A DNA stretch of 44,144 nt from positions 1-44,144 of the forward strand of contig QIKY01000240.1 in the NCBI GenBank assembly GCA_003233175.1, given 5' to 3'. Below are positions 5,702 through 44,144 of this stretch, one piece after another; position 1 is the stretch's first letter, and each line of letters begins with the position of its first letter. Source of the DNA: Planctomycetaceae bacterium. Its GTDB lineage: Bacteria > Planctomycetota > Planctomycetia > Pirellulales > Pirellulaceae. The notes beneath the pieces are model-generated. The model worked only from the letters and a program-made list of their open reading frames with translations, did no database searches and was not told the DNA's origin. A program made the position numbers and the translations under genes.

Positions 5702-6065
5702 GACGATCCACCCTGTAAATGGCTGCTGTATAAATGGCCTTGCCGTGCTACGCGTTAAACGTCGGTCAGGTTTGCCAGTCCACGTCTTGTGTTTCAGTGT
5801 AATTACGCCCCCGCGCCGCTCAGACACCAAGACTCTGGCATTTCCGCCGATCTTTTCCGCAACGCGCCGATTACGACCGTCGCAACGAATGGGAGGGTTG
5901 GCGGCGTTGCGGGAAGACCCTCGCGAGCGAGGACCCAGGCCAAACGCGGGGGGTGGCGGGCTCTTACGCCCGGCGTTCTAATCGAGTTTCCGCCGCGCCG
6001 CTCCCGCACAATCTTCCTCTCTGCGCCCCCGCATTACTTTTTTGTCAGGCCGGAACCGACCCGCC
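5702..6065. other. Divergent intergenic region between the polysaccharide cluster and the addB-like gene
   Basis: This 364-bp stretch separates the leftward chain-length gene and the rightward nuclease gene, so it should hold both promoters. I could not pick convincing -35/-10 boxes. It contains short GC-rich inverted segments around 5920-5940 (CCTCGCGAGCGAGG) and no protein-like frame. A TTG at 6042 is in frame with the downstream gene but lacks support as its start. Confidence 0.4.
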
Positions 6066-8843
6066 ATGCCGATTACCCGCACGTTTCTCGACTGGAGCCG
6101 CCCGTTGCTGGGCCAGGCCGCTGAATATTTGGTGGCGCGTTTTTCCGAACCGGGGCGTTTGGAGTTGAGCCGCGTCGTGGTCGCGACGCCCGCTTCGCGC
6201 CCCGGCCGCACGCTCTTGAACCTCTTGCTGCAACGCGCCCGCCAAGAAGAGTGGATCTTCACCCCGCCGCAAATGTTGACCGTCGGCGCCTTGCCGGAAT
6301 GCTTATACACTTCCCAGAGGCCGCTGGCCTCCGACTTGGTGCAGCAACTCACCTGGGTCGCGGCGCTGCAAGACGCCCGGCCCGCCGACCTCTCCGCCTT
6401 CGCGCCGAAATGGCCGGAGAACAATGATGTGTTGCAGTGGCTCTCGCTGGGCCGCCTGCTCTGGCGCCAGCACCGCGAACTGGCCTCCGACGGACTCGAC
6501 TTTTCGCACGTGTGCGCGTCGAACGTCAAGGTGGATGATTTTCAGGAAGCGATTCGTTGGCGCGCCTTGGCGAAAGTGCAAGCGGCGTATTTACAAAAGC
6601 TCGACGCACTTGAACTCTGGGACACGCAAACGGCGCGTCTGTTCGCCATCGAACATCGAGAATGCCGCACCGAAAAGGAAATTGTGTTGGTCGGCGCCGC
6701 CGACATGAACCGCGCCACGCGGTTGATGCTCGATCAGGTTGCTGATCGTGTCGCGACCTTGATCACGGCGCCTGCGGAGCGGGCCGATTTCTTTGACCAA
6801 CACGGCTGCCTTGCGCCCGCCGCCTGGAAAAATGTCCTGATCGACATTCCGCTGGAGCGCGTGCGGGTGGTCGATACCGCAGCCGACCAGGCCGAAGAAG
6901 CCGTGCGCATTGTCGCCGGTTTTGACGGCCGATTTCGCGCCGATCAAATCGTGATCGGCGCGCCCGACGAAAGCCTCGCCCCGCGCATACAGCGCTGTCT
7001 GTCGGATTGCGGCGTCGCCTCGCGCTGGGTGATCGGCCAAACACTCCAAGACACCGGCCCTTATCGATTCCTCCAAGCCGCGGCCGACTACGCCAACCGC
7101 CGCCGCTTTAGCGAGTTTGCCGCCCTGGCCCGCCACCCCGACGTTTACGATTGGCTGTTGCAAAACACCGGCGGCGCCCATTGGCTGGGCGAACTCGACG
7201 CCTACCACGGCGAACACCTCCCTCCCCGGCTGGGCCATTGGTTGGGTGACAACAAGCGTTTCTCGCAGCTCAAAAAAGCGTTTGAAAAAGTCGATACGTT
7301 GCTCAAGCCGCTGCGCTCCAATACGCGCAAGCTCAATGAATGGGCCAAGCCGCTGCAAGAGATGTTGGCCGAGGTTTATGGCGCCTTGCAACTCGACCAA
7401 CAATCGGCCGACGGCCATTACCTGGCAAAAACACTGCGTGCAATTCGCGACGCCTTGGCCGAACACGCGGCGGTTTCACCAACGGTTTCGCCCGCCATCA
7501 GCGCCGCCGACGCCATACGTCTTCTTTTAGAAAGCCTCTCCGGAAAAACGCTGGCCCCGCTCCCTAGTGAAGACGCGCTGGAAGTGTTGGGCTGGTTGGA
7601 GTTGCCCTTGGACGACGCGCCGGCCTTGGTCGTGACCTCGTTCAATGAGGGACGCGTGCCGACGTCGCTCAATTCCGATATTTTTCTGCCGAATCGTTTA
7701 CGCCGCAAGCTAGGCATCGAAGATAACGACCGCCGCTACGCGCGCGACGCCTACGCCACAAGTTTGCTCTTGGCTGCGCGCCAAGAGGTGTATTTCATTG
7801 TCGGCCGGCGCGATACGGAGGGAAACCCCTTGATTCCCAGCCGGCTGTTGTTTGCCGCGCCCGAAGATCAAATCGCGCAGCGCGTGCGGCATTGTTTCCA
7901 AGCCCAAGATGCAGTGCAACAACGTCGTTTGAAGTCGAATGCGCCGCAAGCGGGCGCGGAGTCGCGTTTTTATGTCCCCCGGCCGAAGCCGCTCGAACAA
8001 CCGATCGAATCGCTGAGCGTGACGGAGTTTGGCGGCTATCTGGCGTGCCCCTATCGCTATTATTTGCGGCGTTGTTTGAAGCTGCAAACGTCGGACGATT
8101 CCGCCGAGGAACTCGGAGCAGCCGATTTCGGCAACCTGCTGCACGACGTGCTGGCCCGCTTCGGTTTGAGCGAACAGCGAGACTTGCAAAACGCCGAGGC
8201 CATTTTTCAATTCCTGCAAGACGCCCTGCGCCGTGCGGTGGCCGCCCAATATGGCAAGCAGCACCTGCCGGCGGTGAATGTTCAACTGGCGCACCTGCGC
8301 CGCCGATTGGAGGCCTTCGCTCACTGGCAGGCCGAACATGCACGGCAAGGCTGGAGAATCATACACACCGAAACATCCTCCCAAGACGCCCCCACGCGGC
8401 TCAAATTAAAAGACCGCTCCATCCTACTGCGCGGCAGGATCGATCGTATCGATCGTAACGAAGCCAGCGGCCAGTGGCGGATTCTCGACTACAAAACCTC
8501 CGACGCCGCCAAAACGCCGGAGCAAACGCACCGCCGCGCCGGCGCCTGGATCGACCTCCAACTGCCGCTCTACCAACTGTTGGCCCGGTCGTTGGGAGTG
8601 ACCGGCGAAATCGAACTCGGCTACATCCTCCTCCCCAAAGATATCGCCCGCGTGGGCGAGGCGATGGCCGCCTGGGACGATGAACTGATCGCCGCGGCGC
8701 ATGATGTCGCTCGTTGCGCCGCCGAAGACATACTGGATGAAAAATTCTGGCCGCCGACCGATCCGCCGCCGCCGACAATGACGGAATTCTCCGACATCTG
8801 CCAAGACGACGCCTTCGAACGCGGCGTTCTCGAATATGAATAA
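6066..8843 (+). CDS. addB: AddB-like PD-(D/E)XK nuclease family protein
   Basis: The 925-residue product ends in a RecB-type nuclease domain: LSVTEFGGYLACPYRYYLRR near 651, NLLHDVLARFG near 690, GRIDRIDR near 791 and the catalytic ILDYKTSD near 807. The middle has a helicase-like patch (ALVVTSFNEGRVPTSLNSD). The N-terminus has ATPASRPGRTL where AddB proteins would have a Walker A loop, so ATP binding is probably lost. The Cys triplet of a C-terminal iron-sulphur cluster is not apparent. The ATG at 6066 is preferred over a TTG at 6042. It lies just upstream of an AddA-like gene, and the pair would resect double-strand breaks to start recombination. The symbol is by analogy. Confidence 0.82.
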   Translation: MPITRTFLDWSRPLLGQAAEYLVARFSEPGRLELSRVVVATPASRPGRTLLNLLLQRARQEEWIFTPPQMLTVGALPECLYTSQRPLASDLVQQLTWVAALQDARPADLSAFAPKWPENNDVLQWLSLGRLLWRQHRELASDGLDFSHVCASNVKVDDFQEAIRWRALAKVQAAYLQKLDALELWDTQTARLFAIEHRECRTEKEIVLVGAADMNRATRLMLDQVADRVATLITAPAERADFFDQHGCLAPAAWKNVLIDIPLERVRVVDTAADQAEEAVRIVAGFDGRFRADQIVIGAPDESLAPRIQRCLSDCGVASRWVIGQTLQDTGPYRFLQAAADYANRRRFSEFAALARHPDVYDWLLQNTGGAHWLGELDAYHGEHLPPRLGHWLGDNKRFSQLKKAFEKVDTLLKPLRSNTRKLNEWAKPLQEMLAEVYGALQLDQQSADGHYLAKTLRAIRDALAEHAAVSPTVSPAISAADAIRLLLESLSGKTLAPLPSEDALEVLGWLELPLDDAPALVVTSFNEGRVPTSLNSDIFLPNRLRRKLGIEDNDRRYARDAYATSLLLAARQEVYFIVGRRDTEGNPLIPSRLLFAAPEDQIAQRVRHCFQAQDAVQQRRLKSNAPQAGAESRFYVPRPKPLEQPIESLSVTEFGGYLACPYRYYLRRCLKLQTSDDSAEELGAADFGNLLHDVLARFGLSEQRDLQNAEAIFQFLQDALRRAVAAQYGKQHLPAVNVQLAHLRRRLEAFAHWQAEHARQGWRIIHTETSSQDAPTRLKLKDRSILLRGRIDRIDRNEASGQWRILDYKTSDAAKTPEQTHRRAGAWIDLQLPLYQLLARSLGVTGEIELGYILLPKDIARVGEAMAAWDDELIAAAHDVARCAAEDILDEKFWPPTDPPPPTMTEFSDICQDDAFERGVLEYE

Positions 8844-8959
8844 CTTATGCGAACCGTTGGAGTGTGTGTTTGAGCGTGTTTTTATTTTTGCCACACTTAA
8901 AAACATGCTAAAGCATGAACTCCAACGGCGCGGCGCTCTCGAAAATGAATAACTTATGC
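8821..8959. repeat. 71-bp palindromic element (family A copy 1) inside a 30-bp direct repeat
   Basis: Positions 8821-8850 and 8930-8959 are direct repeats matching at 28 of 30 bases. Copy one contains the addB-like stop codon (TAA 8841-8843) and copy two contains the addA-like start codon (ATG 8956-8958). Between them, 8856-8926 is a 71-bp element bounded by inverted ends GTTGGAGT and ACTCCAAC, extended to 10 bp by flanking bases (CCGTTGGAGT/ACTCCAACGG). A second 71-bp element of this family lies at 22925-22995. The simplest reading is that the two genes were once three bases apart (TAA CTT ATG), and that arrival of the element duplicated 30 bp and spread them. Confidence 0.85.
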
Positions 8960-11900
8960 CTAATGAACACGTCCTGATTCGCGCCTCGGCGGGAACGGGA
9001 AAAACCCATCAACTCACCAGCCGGTACTTGCGTCTTGTGGCGGACGACGCCGCAGCGCCGGAAATTTTGGCCGCCACCTTCACGCGCAAGGCGGCGGGCG
9101 AAATTCTCGAACGCATTGTCACGCGGCTGGCCGAAGCCTGCTTGCAGGAAAAAAAACGCGTCGAACTAACGCAACACCTGGGGTTACAAACGCTGACGCC
9201 GCAGCGTTGCCGCCGGCTGCTCAAATCACTCACCTCGCAACTGCATCGCCTCCGCATTGGCACGCTCGACAGTTTCTTCGCTCAAGTGGCGGGAAGTTTT
9301 AGTCTGGAACTGGGGCTGCCCACCGGTTGGAGTATTGCCGACCCGCTGCACGACGCCAGCCTGCGCAGCGAAGCGATTGAAACGATTTTAAGAGACGCCG
9401 AATCGAGCGAAGTCGCGCGTTTGCTCAACCTGCTCGCCAAGGGCGACGCCGATCGGTCGGTGAGCGAATTGGTGCGTTCGACCGTCAATCGTTTGTATGG
9501 TTTGTTTGCCGACACGCATGAAAACGCCTGGCGAACCTTTCCCCAATTGCCGCTGCTGCCCGATGCGGAGCTTGCCGGTTTGATGGAAGCGTTGCGCACG
9601 GCGGAGCTGCCCAAGCACAAATCGATCGCCAAGGCGCATCAAGCCAACTGCGAGCAGGCGCTATCGGCCGATTGGATGGGTTTCGTCCAGAGCGGGCTGC
9701 CGAGCAAGGTTCGCCTCGGCGAGCACATTTATTACCGTAAGGAAATTCCCGCCGCGACGGTCGCGATTTACGAGCAGCTGATTCGGCACGCGCGGGCTTT
9801 TCTGATCCAACAGTTGGCGTTACAGACCGCCGCCACGTACGAATTGCTGGCGAAGTTTCATGACGTCTACCGACGACTCAAACACGATTCGCGAGCGCTG
9901 TTGTTCGACGACATCACGCGTTCACTCGCTGGCGGAGAGTCGATGCGCGATGTCGAACGGCTCGCCTTCCGGCTCGACGCGAGCGTGTCGCACCTCCTGT
10001 TGGACGAATTTCAAGACACCTCCGGCAAACAGTGGAGCGTGTTGCGTCCGCTCGCCGAACGGACGATTCGCCCGGCGGACGGCGGGAGTCGGGCGCCGGC
10101 GCGGTCTTCCTTTTTTTGCGTCGGCGATATCAAGCAAGCCATTTACGCTTGGCGGGGCGGCCGCGCGGAAATATTCGCCGCCTTGGAGAAGCAACTTCCG
10201 GAACTGACGCTCGATTCCCTCACCGCCAGTTACCGTTCCTCGCAGCCCGTGATCGATGTGGTGAACGAAGTCTTTCAGGGGATCGGCCGACACGCCAACC
10301 TCGACACGGCGGAGGCGGCCGTGAAAGATTGGAGTACACACTTTCCGCAACACACCACCGTTCGAACCGATTTAACCGGCCATGTTCAGTTGCTTACCGC
10401 GCGCCGCGCCGACCCTGACGATCAAACTCCGATCGACGCCGTCATCGAAGCCGCCGCCGACAAAGTGGAGGAACTGCTCGCCGAAACGCCAGGATTGGAA
10501 ATTGGCCTGTTGGTGCGGCGCAATGCGGTCGTGGCGCGGACTATTTTTGAATTGCGGCAGCGCGGCGTTCGCGCCAGTGAAGAAGGGGGCAATCCTCTGA
10601 CCGACTCCGCGCCCGTGCAGCTTGTGCTTTCGGCGCTGCGGCTGGCCGACCATCCCGCCGACACGATCGCGCTGATGCATGTGGCGAATTCGCCCTTGGG
10701 GCCCGCGCTCGGTTTGCCGGCTTTTCCGGCGGATGCGAACCAAGAAAACAATTCCAACGACAACACGGAAAATGGCGCCCAAAACGGCAACGCCGAGGAG
10801 ATTGCCGAAAAGGTCGCGACGCGGTTGCGCCGCCGCCTCTTGCAGCAAGGTTATGGACCTGTTCTCGAACGTTGGCTGGAGCAACTCGCCGGGTGTTGCA
10901 ACACTCGCGATTTGAATCGGCTGCGGCAACTCGTCGAACTAGGGTACGCTTACCAAGACACCGCCACGCTCCGCGCCACCGACTTCGTGCGGCATGTGGA
11001 GAACCAGAGGGTGGCCGATCCTTCAGCCGCTTCGGTGCGCGTGATGAATGTGCATCAGGCGAAAGGCTTGCAGTTCGATGTGGTGGTGTTGGCCGATCTT
11101 GAGTCTTCGTTGATCGGCCAGCCTCCGAGTTATGTGATCGACCAACCCGATCCGACCGGGCCAATCGCGCGTGTCTGTTTGTATCGCAACAAGGAGATTC
11201 AATCGCTGCTGCCCGACGACATGCAAACCATGTTCCAGCAAGCCACGCATGCCAAGGTCACGGAGACGGTGTGTTTATTGTATGTGGCGATGACGCGCGC
11301 GGTGCATTCGCTTTACATCGTGATATCCCCGGCCAACGTGAGCGAGAAAAAACTGCCTCGCACCTCCGCCGGACTGCTCCGCGCCGCGCTCGCCGGCAAT
11401 CAACCGGCGGCGCCCGAAGCAGTCGTTTACGAACATGGCGATCCATTCTGGGCGGCGGCTGTCAAACGGGAAACAGCGGAAAAGCAGCCGGAGCGGGTGT
11501 CGGAACAAGCGCCGCTGGAGCTACGTTTAGCCCAGCCCGTTGGCAAGCGGCGCGGCGTTCTGGGATCGGCCAGTCCTTCCAGCTTGGAGGGAGGACGCCT
11601 AGCCTCGGCCGCCGACTTGTTGCGCATCGACAACGCCCAGGCGATGGCCCGCGGCACGCTGATGCACGCCTGGTTCGAGCACCTGCTGTGGCTGAACGAT
11701 CCACCGCCGACGCGGGAAACGTTGGTGCAAATTGCTCGCCAGGTGGGCGCCGCCAACCTGGATGTCGAGCAGATGATAAAAGACTTCCAGCAGCTTCTCG
11801 GCGCGCGGCAGATTTCAGGCGTGTTGTCGCGGGAGTATTACGATTTGGCCGCGCAACCGGCGGCGTCCGCGGCATCTCCCACGCCGTTTTCCGAGGCGTT

Positions 11901-12237
11901 TCTCCAACGGTTGGGCGGCAAGCGTCTGCGTTTGGACGTACGCAATGAATTCCCCGTCGCGACCTGGGAAGACAACCAAATTCTCAGCGGGTTTGTTGAT
12001 CGCCTGGTGCTGCTGTATGAAGATGACGTGGTGGTGGGCGCCGATATTATCGATTTCAAAACCGATCACATCGCGGACCACGACCAAGCCGCGCTCTCAC
12101 AACGCAGGGAACACTATCGGCCGCAAATCGAGGCGTATCGGCGCATCGTTTCAAACATGTTTCGCCTGCCGCCGGAATGCGTGGCGGCGCGGCTGTTATT
12201 TCTGACGCCGGCCGTTGTTTCACCGCTGCATGAATAA
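8956..12237 (+). CDS. addA: AddA-like UvrD/Rep helicase with C-terminal nuclease domain
   Basis: The 1093-residue product starts with Walker A at residues 10-17 (ASAGTGKT). Walker B follows near 350 (LLLDEFQDTSGKQW), then CVGDIKQAIYAWRGG near 390, VHQAKGLQFDVVVLADLE near 700, and LLYVAMTRAVHSLYIV near 775 (motif VI). The C-terminus from about 895 is a PD-(D/E)XK domain: GTLMHAWFEHLL, GFVDRLVLL and the catalytic IIDFKTDHI. This is the full AddA/RecB layout: a 3'-5' translocase with a nuclease that trims DNA ends until a recombination signal. Only the N-terminal ATP site of the pair looks active. Translation starts within the second copy of the 30-bp repeat, with no clear ribosome-binding site. 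Confidence 0.9.
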   Translation: MPNEHVLIRASAGTGKTHQLTSRYLRLVADDAAAPEILAATFTRKAAGEILERIVTRLAEACLQEKKRVELTQHLGLQTLTPQRCRRLLKSLTSQLHRLRIGTLDSFFAQVAGSFSLELGLPTGWSIADPLHDASLRSEAIETILRDAESSEVARLLNLLAKGDADRSVSELVRSTVNRLYGLFADTHENAWRTFPQLPLLPDAELAGLMEALRTAELPKHKSIAKAHQANCEQALSADWMGFVQSGLPSKVRLGEHIYYRKEIPAATVAIYEQLIRHARAFLIQQLALQTAATYELLAKFHDVYRRLKHDSRALLFDDITRSLAGGESMRDVERLAFRLDASVSHLLLDEFQDTSGKQWSVLRPLAERTIRPADGGSRAPARSSFFCVGDIKQAIYAWRGGRAEIFAALEKQLPELTLDSLTASYRSSQPVIDVVNEVFQGIGRHANLDTAEAAVKDWSTHFPQHTTVRTDLTGHVQLLTARRADPDDQTPIDAVIEAAADKVEELLAETPGLEIGLLVRRNAVVARTIFELRQRGVRASEEGGNPLTDSAPVQLVLSALRLADHPADTIALMHVANSPLGPALGLPAFPADANQENNSNDNTENGAQNGNAEEIAEKVATRLRRRLLQQGYGPVLERWLEQLAGCCNTRDLNRLRQLVELGYAYQDTATLRATDFVRHVENQRVADPSAASVRVMNVHQAKGLQFDVVVLADLESSLIGQPPSYVIDQPDPTGPIARVCLYRNKEIQSLLPDDMQTMFQQATHAKVTETVCLLYVAMTRAVHSLYIVISPANVSEKKLPRTSAGLLRAALAGNQPAAPEAVVYEHGDPFWAAAVKRETAEKQPERVSEQAPLELRLAQPVGKRRGVLGSASPSSLEGGRLASAADLLRIDNAQAMARGTLMHAWFEHLLWLNDPPPTRETLVQIARQVGAANLDVEQMIKDFQQLLGARQISGVLSREYYDLAAQPAASAASPTPFSEAFLQRLGGKRLRLDVRNEFPVATWEDNQILSGFVDRLVLLYEDDVVVGADIIDFKTDHIADHDQAALSQRREHYRPQIEAYRRIVSNMFRLPPECVAARLLFLTPAVVSPLHE

Positions 12238-18285: not shown

Positions 18286-18621
18286 AACGGGCGCCCTGAA
18301 TGGTTCCTCAATGGTTTTAATGGGTCATTCCAGATCGATGTTTCACTCAGTGGCGAAAAGCGTGCGTGGCGAGTTTTCCGTGATTTCCGTCACTTATTTC
18401 CCCACCGTTTCTTAAATGCCGCGATGGCCACCCTTGTGTTCCTCAAAAAAGGGGAATGATGTCTACAATGCCGCGAGGATAACAACTCAACGTCCAACTG
18501 GGGCAAAACAATGCCGGTAGGTTCGCCAAAAGAAGTCGTGAGCTACGGACTGAAGTCCTGCACACGCGACAAAAGAAAACACGCAACCTTCCTCAAGAGG
18601 CCGCCAATGAAAAAGAAGAAT

Positions 18622-18690
18622 CACCACAAAGAGCACAGAGACAAAGACGCCCTAAAAAAATCTCTGTGTCCTCTGTGGCCTCTGTGGTTA
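18622..18690. repeat. CACAGAG-type inverted repeat (family D copy 2)
   Basis: CACCACAAAGAGCACAGAGA on the left pairs with TCTCTGTGTCCTCTGTGG on the right around a short A-rich loop. Same family as 15978-16053 and 42071-42163. Confidence 0.65.
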
Positions 18691-18891
18691 CATTTCCTTC
18701 CACTGGATTTCTTCGTGGTGACCGAACCCTTGCCACCTCAAGAAAAATGTAAAGGATTCGCCTGAAGGCGAGGGTTTTAGACCCATCGCAAGGACAATAA
18801 GAAACGTGAAGTCGCCACTAATTTCACGAGCGATGCTAACTTATTTCAGGACGATTCCTATCGCCGGAGTACTGGCCGAACTGCGTTTGGA

Positions 18892-21093: not shown

Positions 21094-21493
21094 GATTTCT
21101 CTCAATTCCAAACTCGGAAGACACGCTCAAGCGTACACTCCAACCCATCGTGAAGCCTGGCGGCGCCAAATGCAAGCACTTTCGGGCTTGCGGCCTCCCC
21201 AAACTACCTACCGCTCCCAGGCTCCGCCGCGATTGGACGAACGTATTTCGAGACGACGATTCAATGTCGAGAGGCCAATTCAAAGTGAAGGCGGTTTGGC
21301 AACCGGCCGATAGCAGAAAAGAGCGCGCTGCGGCGGGGGCCTGTCATTTTTTGTAGTGTTTGAAGTTTGTAGTGGTCAAAGATTGATGGTAAGAATCAAC
21401 CAGCGTAAGATGGAGCGCTGCGGTGGTTTGGGGCCTGGAAGATGGCAGGCGCCTACCAATCATTCCAAGCGTGTGCTGCGAGGGGGCCAGCCG
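21094..21493. other. Divergent promoter region between the hydrolase and DUF1501 genes
   Basis: This 400-bp region should hold promoters for both genes. It contains a half-copy of the family-A element at 21121-21144 (CACGCTCAAGCG followed by TACACTCCAAC). An open frame extends from the DUF1501 gene upstream to 21356 but reads as low-complexity basic peptide with no homology I recognise. I cannot assign promoter boxes. Confidence 0.4.
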
Positions 21494-22924: not shown

Positions 22925-22995
22925 GTTGGAGTTCAAGCTTTAGCTTGTTTTGTAGGGTGCGGAAGAAGAAAACACGCTGAAGCGTACACTCCAAC
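22925..22995. repeat. 71-bp palindromic element, family A copy 2
   Basis: Bounded by GTTGGAGT and ACTCCAAC, it is exactly the same length as the copy at 8856-8926. Internal arms CAAGCTTTAGCTTG and CACGCTGAAGCGT form small hairpins. It lies between the DUF1501 gene and the barrel-protein gene. No flanking direct repeat is visible here. Confidence 0.8.
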
Positions 22996-24095: not shown

Positions 24096-24101
24096 GCCCA
24101 C

Positions 24102-24240
24102 GGCGGGTGAGAATTTACCGTAATACAAGCACGAAGCGCAAGCGAGTGAATCAGCAAACGGTCATTCTTGCGTGGGTGGGAACCCAAAAAAACTCACGGA
24201 CTCCCGTGGCGTGCGGGTGAGTTATTTTCCGCCGCTCGCC
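24102..24240. repeat. Dispersed inverted-end element, family C copy 1
   Basis: A 139-bp element that reappears in the opposite orientation at 43974-44118. Shared core: ACAAGCACGAAGCGCAAGCG, then AACGGTCATTC, then GACTCCCG and AGTTATTTTCCGCCGCTCGCC. It starts 6 bp past the barrel-gene stop. The ends are loosely inverted (GGCGGGTGAGAATTTAC versus GTGAGTTATTTTCCGCC). Confidence 0.8.
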
Positions 24241-24277
24241 TAACACCATAGCACGGCATAGATCATGGACAGGTCCT

Positions 24278-32615: not shown

Positions 32616-32908
32616 GGAATCATCGCCTGGGCGGCGGCTCAAAGGGGAGGAGCAAAAAGAACGGCGACGTCTGCGGAAACTTATCGCTGCCGGCTGCGGA
32701 AACTTATTCCCAGCTATTATGCCCCAATAATCCGATACTCTCTAGTTGGGCAGCGCCGCAGAAAAACGATATTTCGCACGTTTGGCAATGGCTCGCCAAG
32801 AAAAAAGCACGCTGAAGCGTGAACTCCAACGGCGCGGCCACCGCTCGCGATACAGGCAACGGCCGCGCGGCGTCGCCGCTGCGAAAAAACCCAGTCCATT
32901 TGCGACGT
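32616..32908. other. Upstream region of the lut operon with a family-A half element
   Basis: About 290 bp between the protease stop and the lutA start, both on the minus strand. It contains a half-copy of the family-A element near 32801-32830 (AGCACGCTGAAGCGTGAACT then CCAAC). The operon promoter should be here, but I see no boxes I would defend. Confidence 0.45.
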
Positions 32909-38733: not shown

Positions 38734-39432
38734 CGGTACTACGCTCCATGACGCCAGCCGACGCCCAGTGTCGCTCTTACATAGTTGTACGATGCCATCG
38801 AAGGCCGTCGTAGGTTGTCTCTGTGCATTTGGAAATAAATAGCAGCCAAAGACGCCCTCGCTGCAATGGGTAAACTCTCATCTGCCGCTCGTCGTAACCG
38901 TTTGTTTGATTGCGTGTTGAAGTTGGCCTGAGGGCAATACGAGTTTGACTTGCAAATCGCGGCCCCCGCGCAACGGCGCTCCCTGGCCGAATGTCGTCAT
39001 TTGCGTAATGGTCGCGCGGAAGTTTAACGGCTAAGGTCGATGAGCGACAGAGCGATCAACGCAGTCTGGGCAACCTGGCGACCTATCCACTCTCTGATCG
39101 GCCGGAACGGAGGGCGCCGCCTGTTTACATTCTCGGCAAATGAGCAGCCTTTCTCCGATTCGTTTTGGAAGATTGGGTTTCAAGCGGGGGAAGTTGGTGA
39201 AGCCTGGGGAAAAATGGCGGCCGAGTTGCTTGAAATCAGTGTTCTTCCATTGGGTAAAGGGGGCGCGTAAGGAGCTGTCCTCGATATCTTCCGTGCGATG
39301 GTGTTATGAAATTCCCGCCAAGCCGGAGGCTTGCCAGCCATTAGCCGGTGGTCGAGCGCAGCGAACACCACCCGCTAATGGCCCTTGCATGGAATGGATC
39401 TTGGACAGGCGCCAATCACCGAAGCATCAGTT
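38734..39432. other. Intergenic region with repeat fragments
   Basis: About 700 bp without a convincing gene. It holds part of a family-E inner arm (near 38790-38810), a fragment of a family-C end at 38868-38893 (GTAAACTCTCATCTGCCGCT), and a family-F inverted repeat (39337-39382). A 40-codon minus-strand frame at 38878-39000 (FGQGAPLRGGRDLQVKLVLP inside it) may be a gene relic, but it has no homology I can name. Confidence 0.5.
39337..39382. repeat. GCCATTAGCCGG inverted repeat (family F)
   Basis: GCCATTAGCCGGTGG at the left and CCACCCGCTAATGGC at the right pair with few mismatches. The preceding ATGAAATTCCCGCCAAGCCG is shared with 17520-17539. Confidence 0.7.
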
Positions 39433-43761: not shown

Positions 43762-44144
43762 TTTTCGTCTGCGTTGAATGTCCGCCTGGAAACCGCCGAG
43801 CAATGCCTGAACTTCCGCCGGCGTTGCAGAAAATTGCGATAACATCCAGCCGACCGATCAAAACTCGTGAACGGTTGCTGTTTTTCTTTCGTGCCGTTCG
43901 TGTATTTCGTGGTTGTAAAATGACCCCGGCGAAAGGATGGAACAAAAGAATGTCGCCGCGCAAGTTGTTGTAAGGCGAGCGGCGGAAAATAACTTACCCG
44001 CACGCAGCGGGAGTCCGTGACTATTTTTGGGTTCCCACCTACGCAGGAATGACCGTTTGCTGATTCACTCGCTTGCGCTTCGTGCTTGTATTAAGTAAAT
44101 TTTCATCTGCCGCTCGCCTAAAGGGAACCACGAAAGTCACGAAC
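43762..44144. other. Intergenic tail with repeat elements
   Basis: No gene is supported. A short TTCGTGCCGTTCGTGTATTT-type stretch (about 43886) resembles one arm of a TTCGTG repeat, and the window ends in CCACGAAAGTCACGAAC, probably the first arm of another one. Between them lies the family-C element. Confidence 0.5.
43974..44118. repeat. Dispersed inverted-end element, family C copy 2
   Basis: This 145-bp element is the reverse-orientation copy of 24102-24240. Its ends GGCGAGCGGCGGAAAATAAC and the complement of GGCGAGCGGCAGATGAAAAT form imperfect terminal inverted repeats, clearer here than in copy 1. Confidence 0.8.

Follow-up and report, generated by a model that had tools for sequence, protein, structure and literature searches.

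The closest described counterparts of the repeat analyzed here are the REPINs of Pseudomonas fluorescens SBW25. According to passages of their description, they consist of two inverted palindromic units that form one long hairpin and occur in hundreds of copies, with doublets, single units and clusters mixed; a 71-bp doublet spacing and the excision of doublets are described as well (PMC3116915). Short stem-loops tagged with GTAG or CGTC, which also occur as dimers, have been reported in Planctomycetes, and REPs have been noted in DNA-repair genes (passages of PMC3733652). The best-known machinery for REP-like hairpins is that of IS200/IS605 and TnpA-REP (RAYT) (passages of PMC2817692; PMC8266576), and IS200/IS605 members are stated there to generate no larger target duplications (PMC2817692). 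In the passages concerned, the movement of REPs and REPINs is an open question (PMC3116915; PMC8266576), and the spread of REPs was still to be elucidated as of 2021 (PMC8266576).

Here we describe a REPIN-like doublet between the addB and addA genes of a Planctomycetaceae bacterium, located in a window (the whole stretch of DNA that was analyzed) of 44,144 nucleotides. It shares with the SBW25 REPINs the two inverted palindromic units, the long hairpin, the copy number, the mixture of doublets, single units and clusters, and the 71-bp size. In addition, it is enclosed by long direct repeats, and several sister copies at tight gene junctions duplicated their target likewise; repeats of this kind do not usually do so. 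The organization of the junction is as follows:

6042..8843, + strand: addB, open reading frame as called from TTG (putative start); Pfam PDDEXK_1, E = 8.9e-36, residues 657-906
8820..8850, + strand: left copy of the 31-bp direct repeat, with the addB end and stop; 94% identity, conserved in the sister species G001
8851..8855, no strand: outer left end of the element, GAACC; family consensus approximately CGCRCC (flank consensus, 74 doublets)
8856..8926, no strand: REPIN-like doublet of 71 bp, two inverted REP-like units with GTTGGAG outward (doublet size classes; hairpin z = -7.7)
8856..8878, + strand: left REP-like unit, GTTGGAGTGTGTGTTTGAGCGTG; a degenerate copy that departs from the 20-nt pattern at 2 positions
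8904..8926, - strand: right REP-like unit, GTTGGAGTTCATGCTTTAGCATG, an exact match to the family pattern
8927..8933, no strand: outer right end of the element, GGCGCGG (flank consensus GGCGCG), the last 5 bp of which are also the start of the right copy
8929..8959, + strand: right copy of the 31-bp direct repeat, with the copied addB end and stop and the addA start (repeat search)
8956..12237, + strand: addA; Pfam UvrD-helicase 5.3e-37, UvrD_C 1.1e-14

The hallmark of AddAB, a C-terminal PDDEXK nuclease in AddB adjoining the UvrD-type helicase AddA, is present according to Pfam. A repeat search of the window identified the two copies as 29/31 identical, at a spacing of 109 bp start to start. 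The stop codon of addB (TAA, 8841-8843) falls inside the left copy and the start codon of addA (ATG, 8956-8958) inside the right copy, the duplicated segment includes GCGGCGTTCTCGAAAATGAATAAC, and the two genes are now 112 nt apart. The right copy encodes R-G-A-L-E-N-E-stop, whereas addB ends in R-G-V-L-E-Y-E-stop. An initial annotation of this DNA, which had recognized 28/30 identical repeats from position 8821 with the stop and start codons, and a copy of the last addB codons in the second of them, was thus correct on both points, the repeat starting one base earlier. It had also described a 71-bp palindrome with 10-bp inverted ends; this palindrome is real, but its pairing reaches beyond the 10 bp of perfect ends, with arms of 31 nt that are 81% complementary. 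The predicted RNA fold (-38.5 kcal/mol, z = -7.7) and DNA fold (-20.9, z = -6.6) each beat 200/200 shuffles. Comparison with known structured RNAs gave only sub-threshold microRNA-like matches, due to the hairpin shape.

The flanks of the addB-addA doublet align with a score of 25, compared to a maximum of 14 among 2256 mispaired flanks of doublets in unique sequence, and these controls rule out a chance origin of the repeats. Both the flanking repeats and the palindrome between them are confirmed as real.

Sequence and copy number identify the palindrome as a REPIN-like doublet, built from a REP-like repeat. The 23-nt unit pattern (GTTGGAGTNNANGCTNNAGCNTG, one mismatch allowed) has 437 matches in the genome and its reversed control none, and a search of the genome with the element itself returned dozens of relatives. 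What the initial annotation took for a lone small transposed element is therefore one of hundreds of REPIN-like copies. The units read GTTGGAGTNNAYGCTNNAGCRTG and have the foot GTTG, not GTAG or CGTC; because of this foot, and because no examined Y1 transposase gene is flanked by the unit, we use the name "REPIN-like". We examined approximately 137 loci of the genome, the assembly of which is fragmented and 93% complete. At 76/137 loci, two units lie in opposite orientation with GTTGGAG outward ("+-" doublets), and the 23-nt units also occur singly and in tandem. Among the 76 doublets, 38 measure 66-84 bp (mode 71) and 36 measure 59-63 bp. Conservation extends approximately 5-10 bp past GTTGG, after which the information content falls (flank consensus, 74 doublets). 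The sites studied in detail are mostly at gene ends and junctions.

Elsewhere in the window, the same repeat is found as a full doublet (22925-22995), which is nearly identical in the sister species, and as single units (21122-21144 and 32808-32830). Four further stretches of the window (approximately 18517-18810, 24101-24277, 39269-39378 and 43956-44119) match several places in the sister genome and are apparently dispersed repeats. A mosaic repeat of 150-250 bp (GCATCCCGGCGGGATGC ... GCGCCGCCCACC) contains many of the 60-61 bp doublets found in the genome.

To assess flanking duplications across the genome, the left flank of each doublet was compared with its right flank, and with mispaired flanks of different loci. 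Doublets inside the mosaic repeat were removed, since they inflated the controls, leaving a cleaned set of 48 doublets in unique flanks. A flanking-repeat score of at least 13 was found in 7/48 doublets, versus 0.02 expected from the mispairings, and the next-best doublet scores 9. By the criterion of the initial annotation, its reading would have failed if copies elsewhere were never flanked by duplications; this is not the case. The repeats measure 31 bp at addB-addA, 56 bp at L011, 36 bp at L161, 33 bp at L176, 28 bp and perhaps more at L179, 20 bp at L196 and 13 bp at L187. Most doublets are without a long flanking repeat, and so are all 61 single or tandem units, with a top flank score of 11.

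The copies abut the ends of the element at addB-addA and L176, whereas other loci have fillers, as seen at L179, L196 and L161. The complex locus L161, at which the sister species shares the left filler, was left out of the clean cases. A search for filler sources in 1.76 Mb of sequence showed a resemblance between the left filler of L011 and the flank of a different doublet, L149/L223 (19/20), and matches of the L013 filler to other places, several of them over only 13-15 bases; for the remaining fillers this sequence held no convincing source.

The sister species, G001 (planctomycete MAG Dive96_bin2.57), carries the segment in a single copy and without a doublet at the partners of five loci (L187/L221, L179/L222, L176/L225, L196/L228 and L011/L224), and 0/5 of these sites keep a tandem duplication. 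At L187 the flanks are 96-100% identical to the sister and the 13-bp copy is exact. Five of the seven duplicated loci thus have single-copy empty sister sites, which supports the initial proposal that arrival of the element duplicated its target. These sister sites could in principle be later precise deletions between direct repeats, as no close outgroup is available to polarize the change. The sister partners of L002, L005, L008, L009, L013 and L016 are empty as well and show insertion without a long repeat, with few bases lost, altered or extra; L002 and L008 may instead be sister deletions that left remnants. At the sister locus L104, approximately 450 bp of other sequence occupies the place of the doublet of L012; it starts with a REP-like end (GCGCCGTTGGAGTGT) and may represent a larger element that shares this end.

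Four of the five empty-site loci, and the addB-addA locus, are same-strand gene junctions, at which the duplication keeps both genes intact. In the sister, the genes for a solute-binding protein and a transport permease at L176 overlap by ATGA (spacing -4 nt), and here the doublet parts them, each 33-bp copy serving one gene. The sister genes are 11 nt apart at L179 (DAHP synthase and MIOX), 18 nt at L187 (phosphodiesterase-type and epimerase-type) and 42 nt at L196 (alanine dehydrogenase and the next gene); L011 sits at a gene end.

Among 40 related genomes compared, unit matches number 437 in the own genome, 199 in the sister, 196 in G024 (same family) and 36 in G039 (same order), and zero to four in each of the others. 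Exact doublets number 68 in the own genome versus 13 in the sister. Around the addB-addA locus, the DNA of the sister is 94% identical, and both repeat copies and a doublet are found at the same place with cleanly aligning flanks. This arrangement rules out a recent insertion in this strain as well as an assembly error, and places the duplication and insertion before the species split. The sister doublet (L067, approximately 1410-1476) measures 61 bp instead of 71 bp, and its left unit belongs to a different subtype (TTCAC versus GTGTG). Comparison of the two sequences suggests that the interior has been exchanged or remodeled since the split, possibly by in-place exchange between repeats. The junction alignment proposed in the initial annotation shows the element and both copies in the sister; in more distant family members that lack the element, the two genes overlap (ATGA or GTGA) or are joined as TAA-GC-ATG. 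The ancestral spacing was presumably 3 nt (TAA-CTT-ATG).

In the more distant G024, which has the same repeat, no clear target duplication was found among 49 loci, and high flank scores were traced to a second, nested palindromic repeat. At L272:4678-4748, L279:1380-1454 and L303:12358-12411 of this genome, the GTTGGAG doublet lies between inverted copies of the second palindrome, which has the classic GTAG foot (GTAGGTCCCGTC...), so that two REP-like families are nested in each other. The duplication behavior may be restricted to this genus, or be visible only for young insertions.

Several routes could lead to a doublet between direct repeats. A RAYT/TnpA-REP single-strand transposase might insert doublets cleanly, with the repeats arising from later, unrelated conversion or recombination. 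The GT-type foot and the doublets are like those of known REPINs, the genome contains Y1_Tnp genes, and several empty sister sites show insertion without a long repeat. However, none of the Y1_Tnp loci examined in seven genomes (approximately 14 weaker matches in other genomes being left out) is flanked by the unit, and later processes would leave unexplained both the single-copy empty sites and the absence of repeats at the 61 non-doublets; we consider this route unlikely. A RAYT gene may possibly have been missed, given the fragmented, 93%-complete assembly and the weaker matches left out, and no mobilizing enzyme for the doublet was identified in the present survey. The best Y1 transposase match of the sister (L240) is interrupted by an in-frame stop and shares only 42% identity with the intact L061 of the genome studied here; the same sister has far fewer exact doublets (13 versus 68). 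Two further routes, reverse transcription of REPIN RNA primed at the target and capture of REPIN DNA by end joining in a staggered break, would both give variable duplications, deletions and filler, as in the mixed outcomes seen, but neither a reverse transcriptase nor Ku was found in this 93%-complete genome, and G001 has no Ku and one partial reverse transcriptase match, which makes these routes very improbable.

Alternatively, a short tandem duplication by slippage may have come first and the doublet may have been inserted between its copies later. This order predicts the same end state and would accommodate the fillers at L179, L196 and L161, where the copies do not touch the element, yet at five loci or more it requires two independent events at one place, a tandem duplication is missing from all five sister sites, and single and tandem REP units show no such repeats. 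We regard it as distinctly unlikely. Mobilization of an ordinary MITE by a DDE transposase would explain the inverted ends, the small size and the flanking direct repeats, but seven repeat lengths from 13 to 56 bp (13, 20, 28, 31, 33, 36 and 56) are too varied for a fixed stagger, and the element is a doublet of 23-nt units that are also found singly and in tandem; a MITE is accordingly a highly implausible explanation.

We therefore favor the reading that a REPIN-like doublet was probably inserted at addB-addA in an ancestor common to both species, duplicating a target of approximately 26-31 bp, so that the addB end and stop would have come to lie in the left copy and the addA start region in the right copy. 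The insertion intermediate may have been joined at a site where the two strands were opened at unequal positions. Alternatively, a polymerase may have switched from the target to the hairpin, copied it and resumed on the target 13-56 nt upstream of its departure point, re-synthesis then duplicating the target; a downstream return would delete target sequence and give insertions without long repeats. Judging from the seven loci, selection would retain the duplicated outcome at tight junctions as the only one that leaves both genes whole. The variable lengths, the filler and the insertions without long repeats fit such replication or repair re-synthesis, presumably in place of a fixed-stagger transposase, and the repair-linked or template-switch mechanism of the initial annotation agrees with the variable lengths while remaining a deduction. 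Duplication is not an obligatory step, since most doublets, several of them with empty sister sites, have no long repeat. The insertion may be reversible, as direct repeats 109 bp apart should allow precise loss.

More tentatively, and with the balance somewhat against it, doublets in this genus might spread by a route that normally yields a long, variable target duplication (template-switch or unequal-nick re-synthesis). If so, duplication would let the repeat settle where operon genes overlap or abut and leave them unbroken. At the loci described here, the repeat can enter an operon junction of approximately 3 nt or an ATGA overlap without harming either gene, at the cost that formerly adjacent genes are now separated.

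Compared to the known systems, the doublets differ from the SBW25 REPINs in their foot, GTTG(GAG) instead of GTAG, and in that no adjacent RAYT gene was found in the genome studied; seven of them have duplications of 13-56 bp, of which the passages on SBW25 make no mention (PMC3116915). They resemble the GTAG/CGTC-tagged REPs in being tagged short stem-loops that form dimers, but their tag differs by one base from those given in the passages concerned (PMC3733652), and the text of that study contains no word starting with "duplicat". The Y1_Tnp genes are shared with the IS200/IS605 and RAYT systems, whereas the long target duplications are unlike IS200/IS605 as portrayed in the passages cited (PMC2817692). 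With MITEs they have in common the small size, the non-autonomous nature, the inverted ends and the flanking direct repeats, but here the duplication varies from 13 to 56 bp and is absent from most copies. Long target duplication is not described for REPs in the literature passages found by keyword, which covered few subscription journals. Insertions that have empty sites in the sister species and duplications of 13-56 bp constitute a footprint that any proposed mechanism has to reproduce, and for this lineage they speak against single-strand insertion of a simple, clean type.
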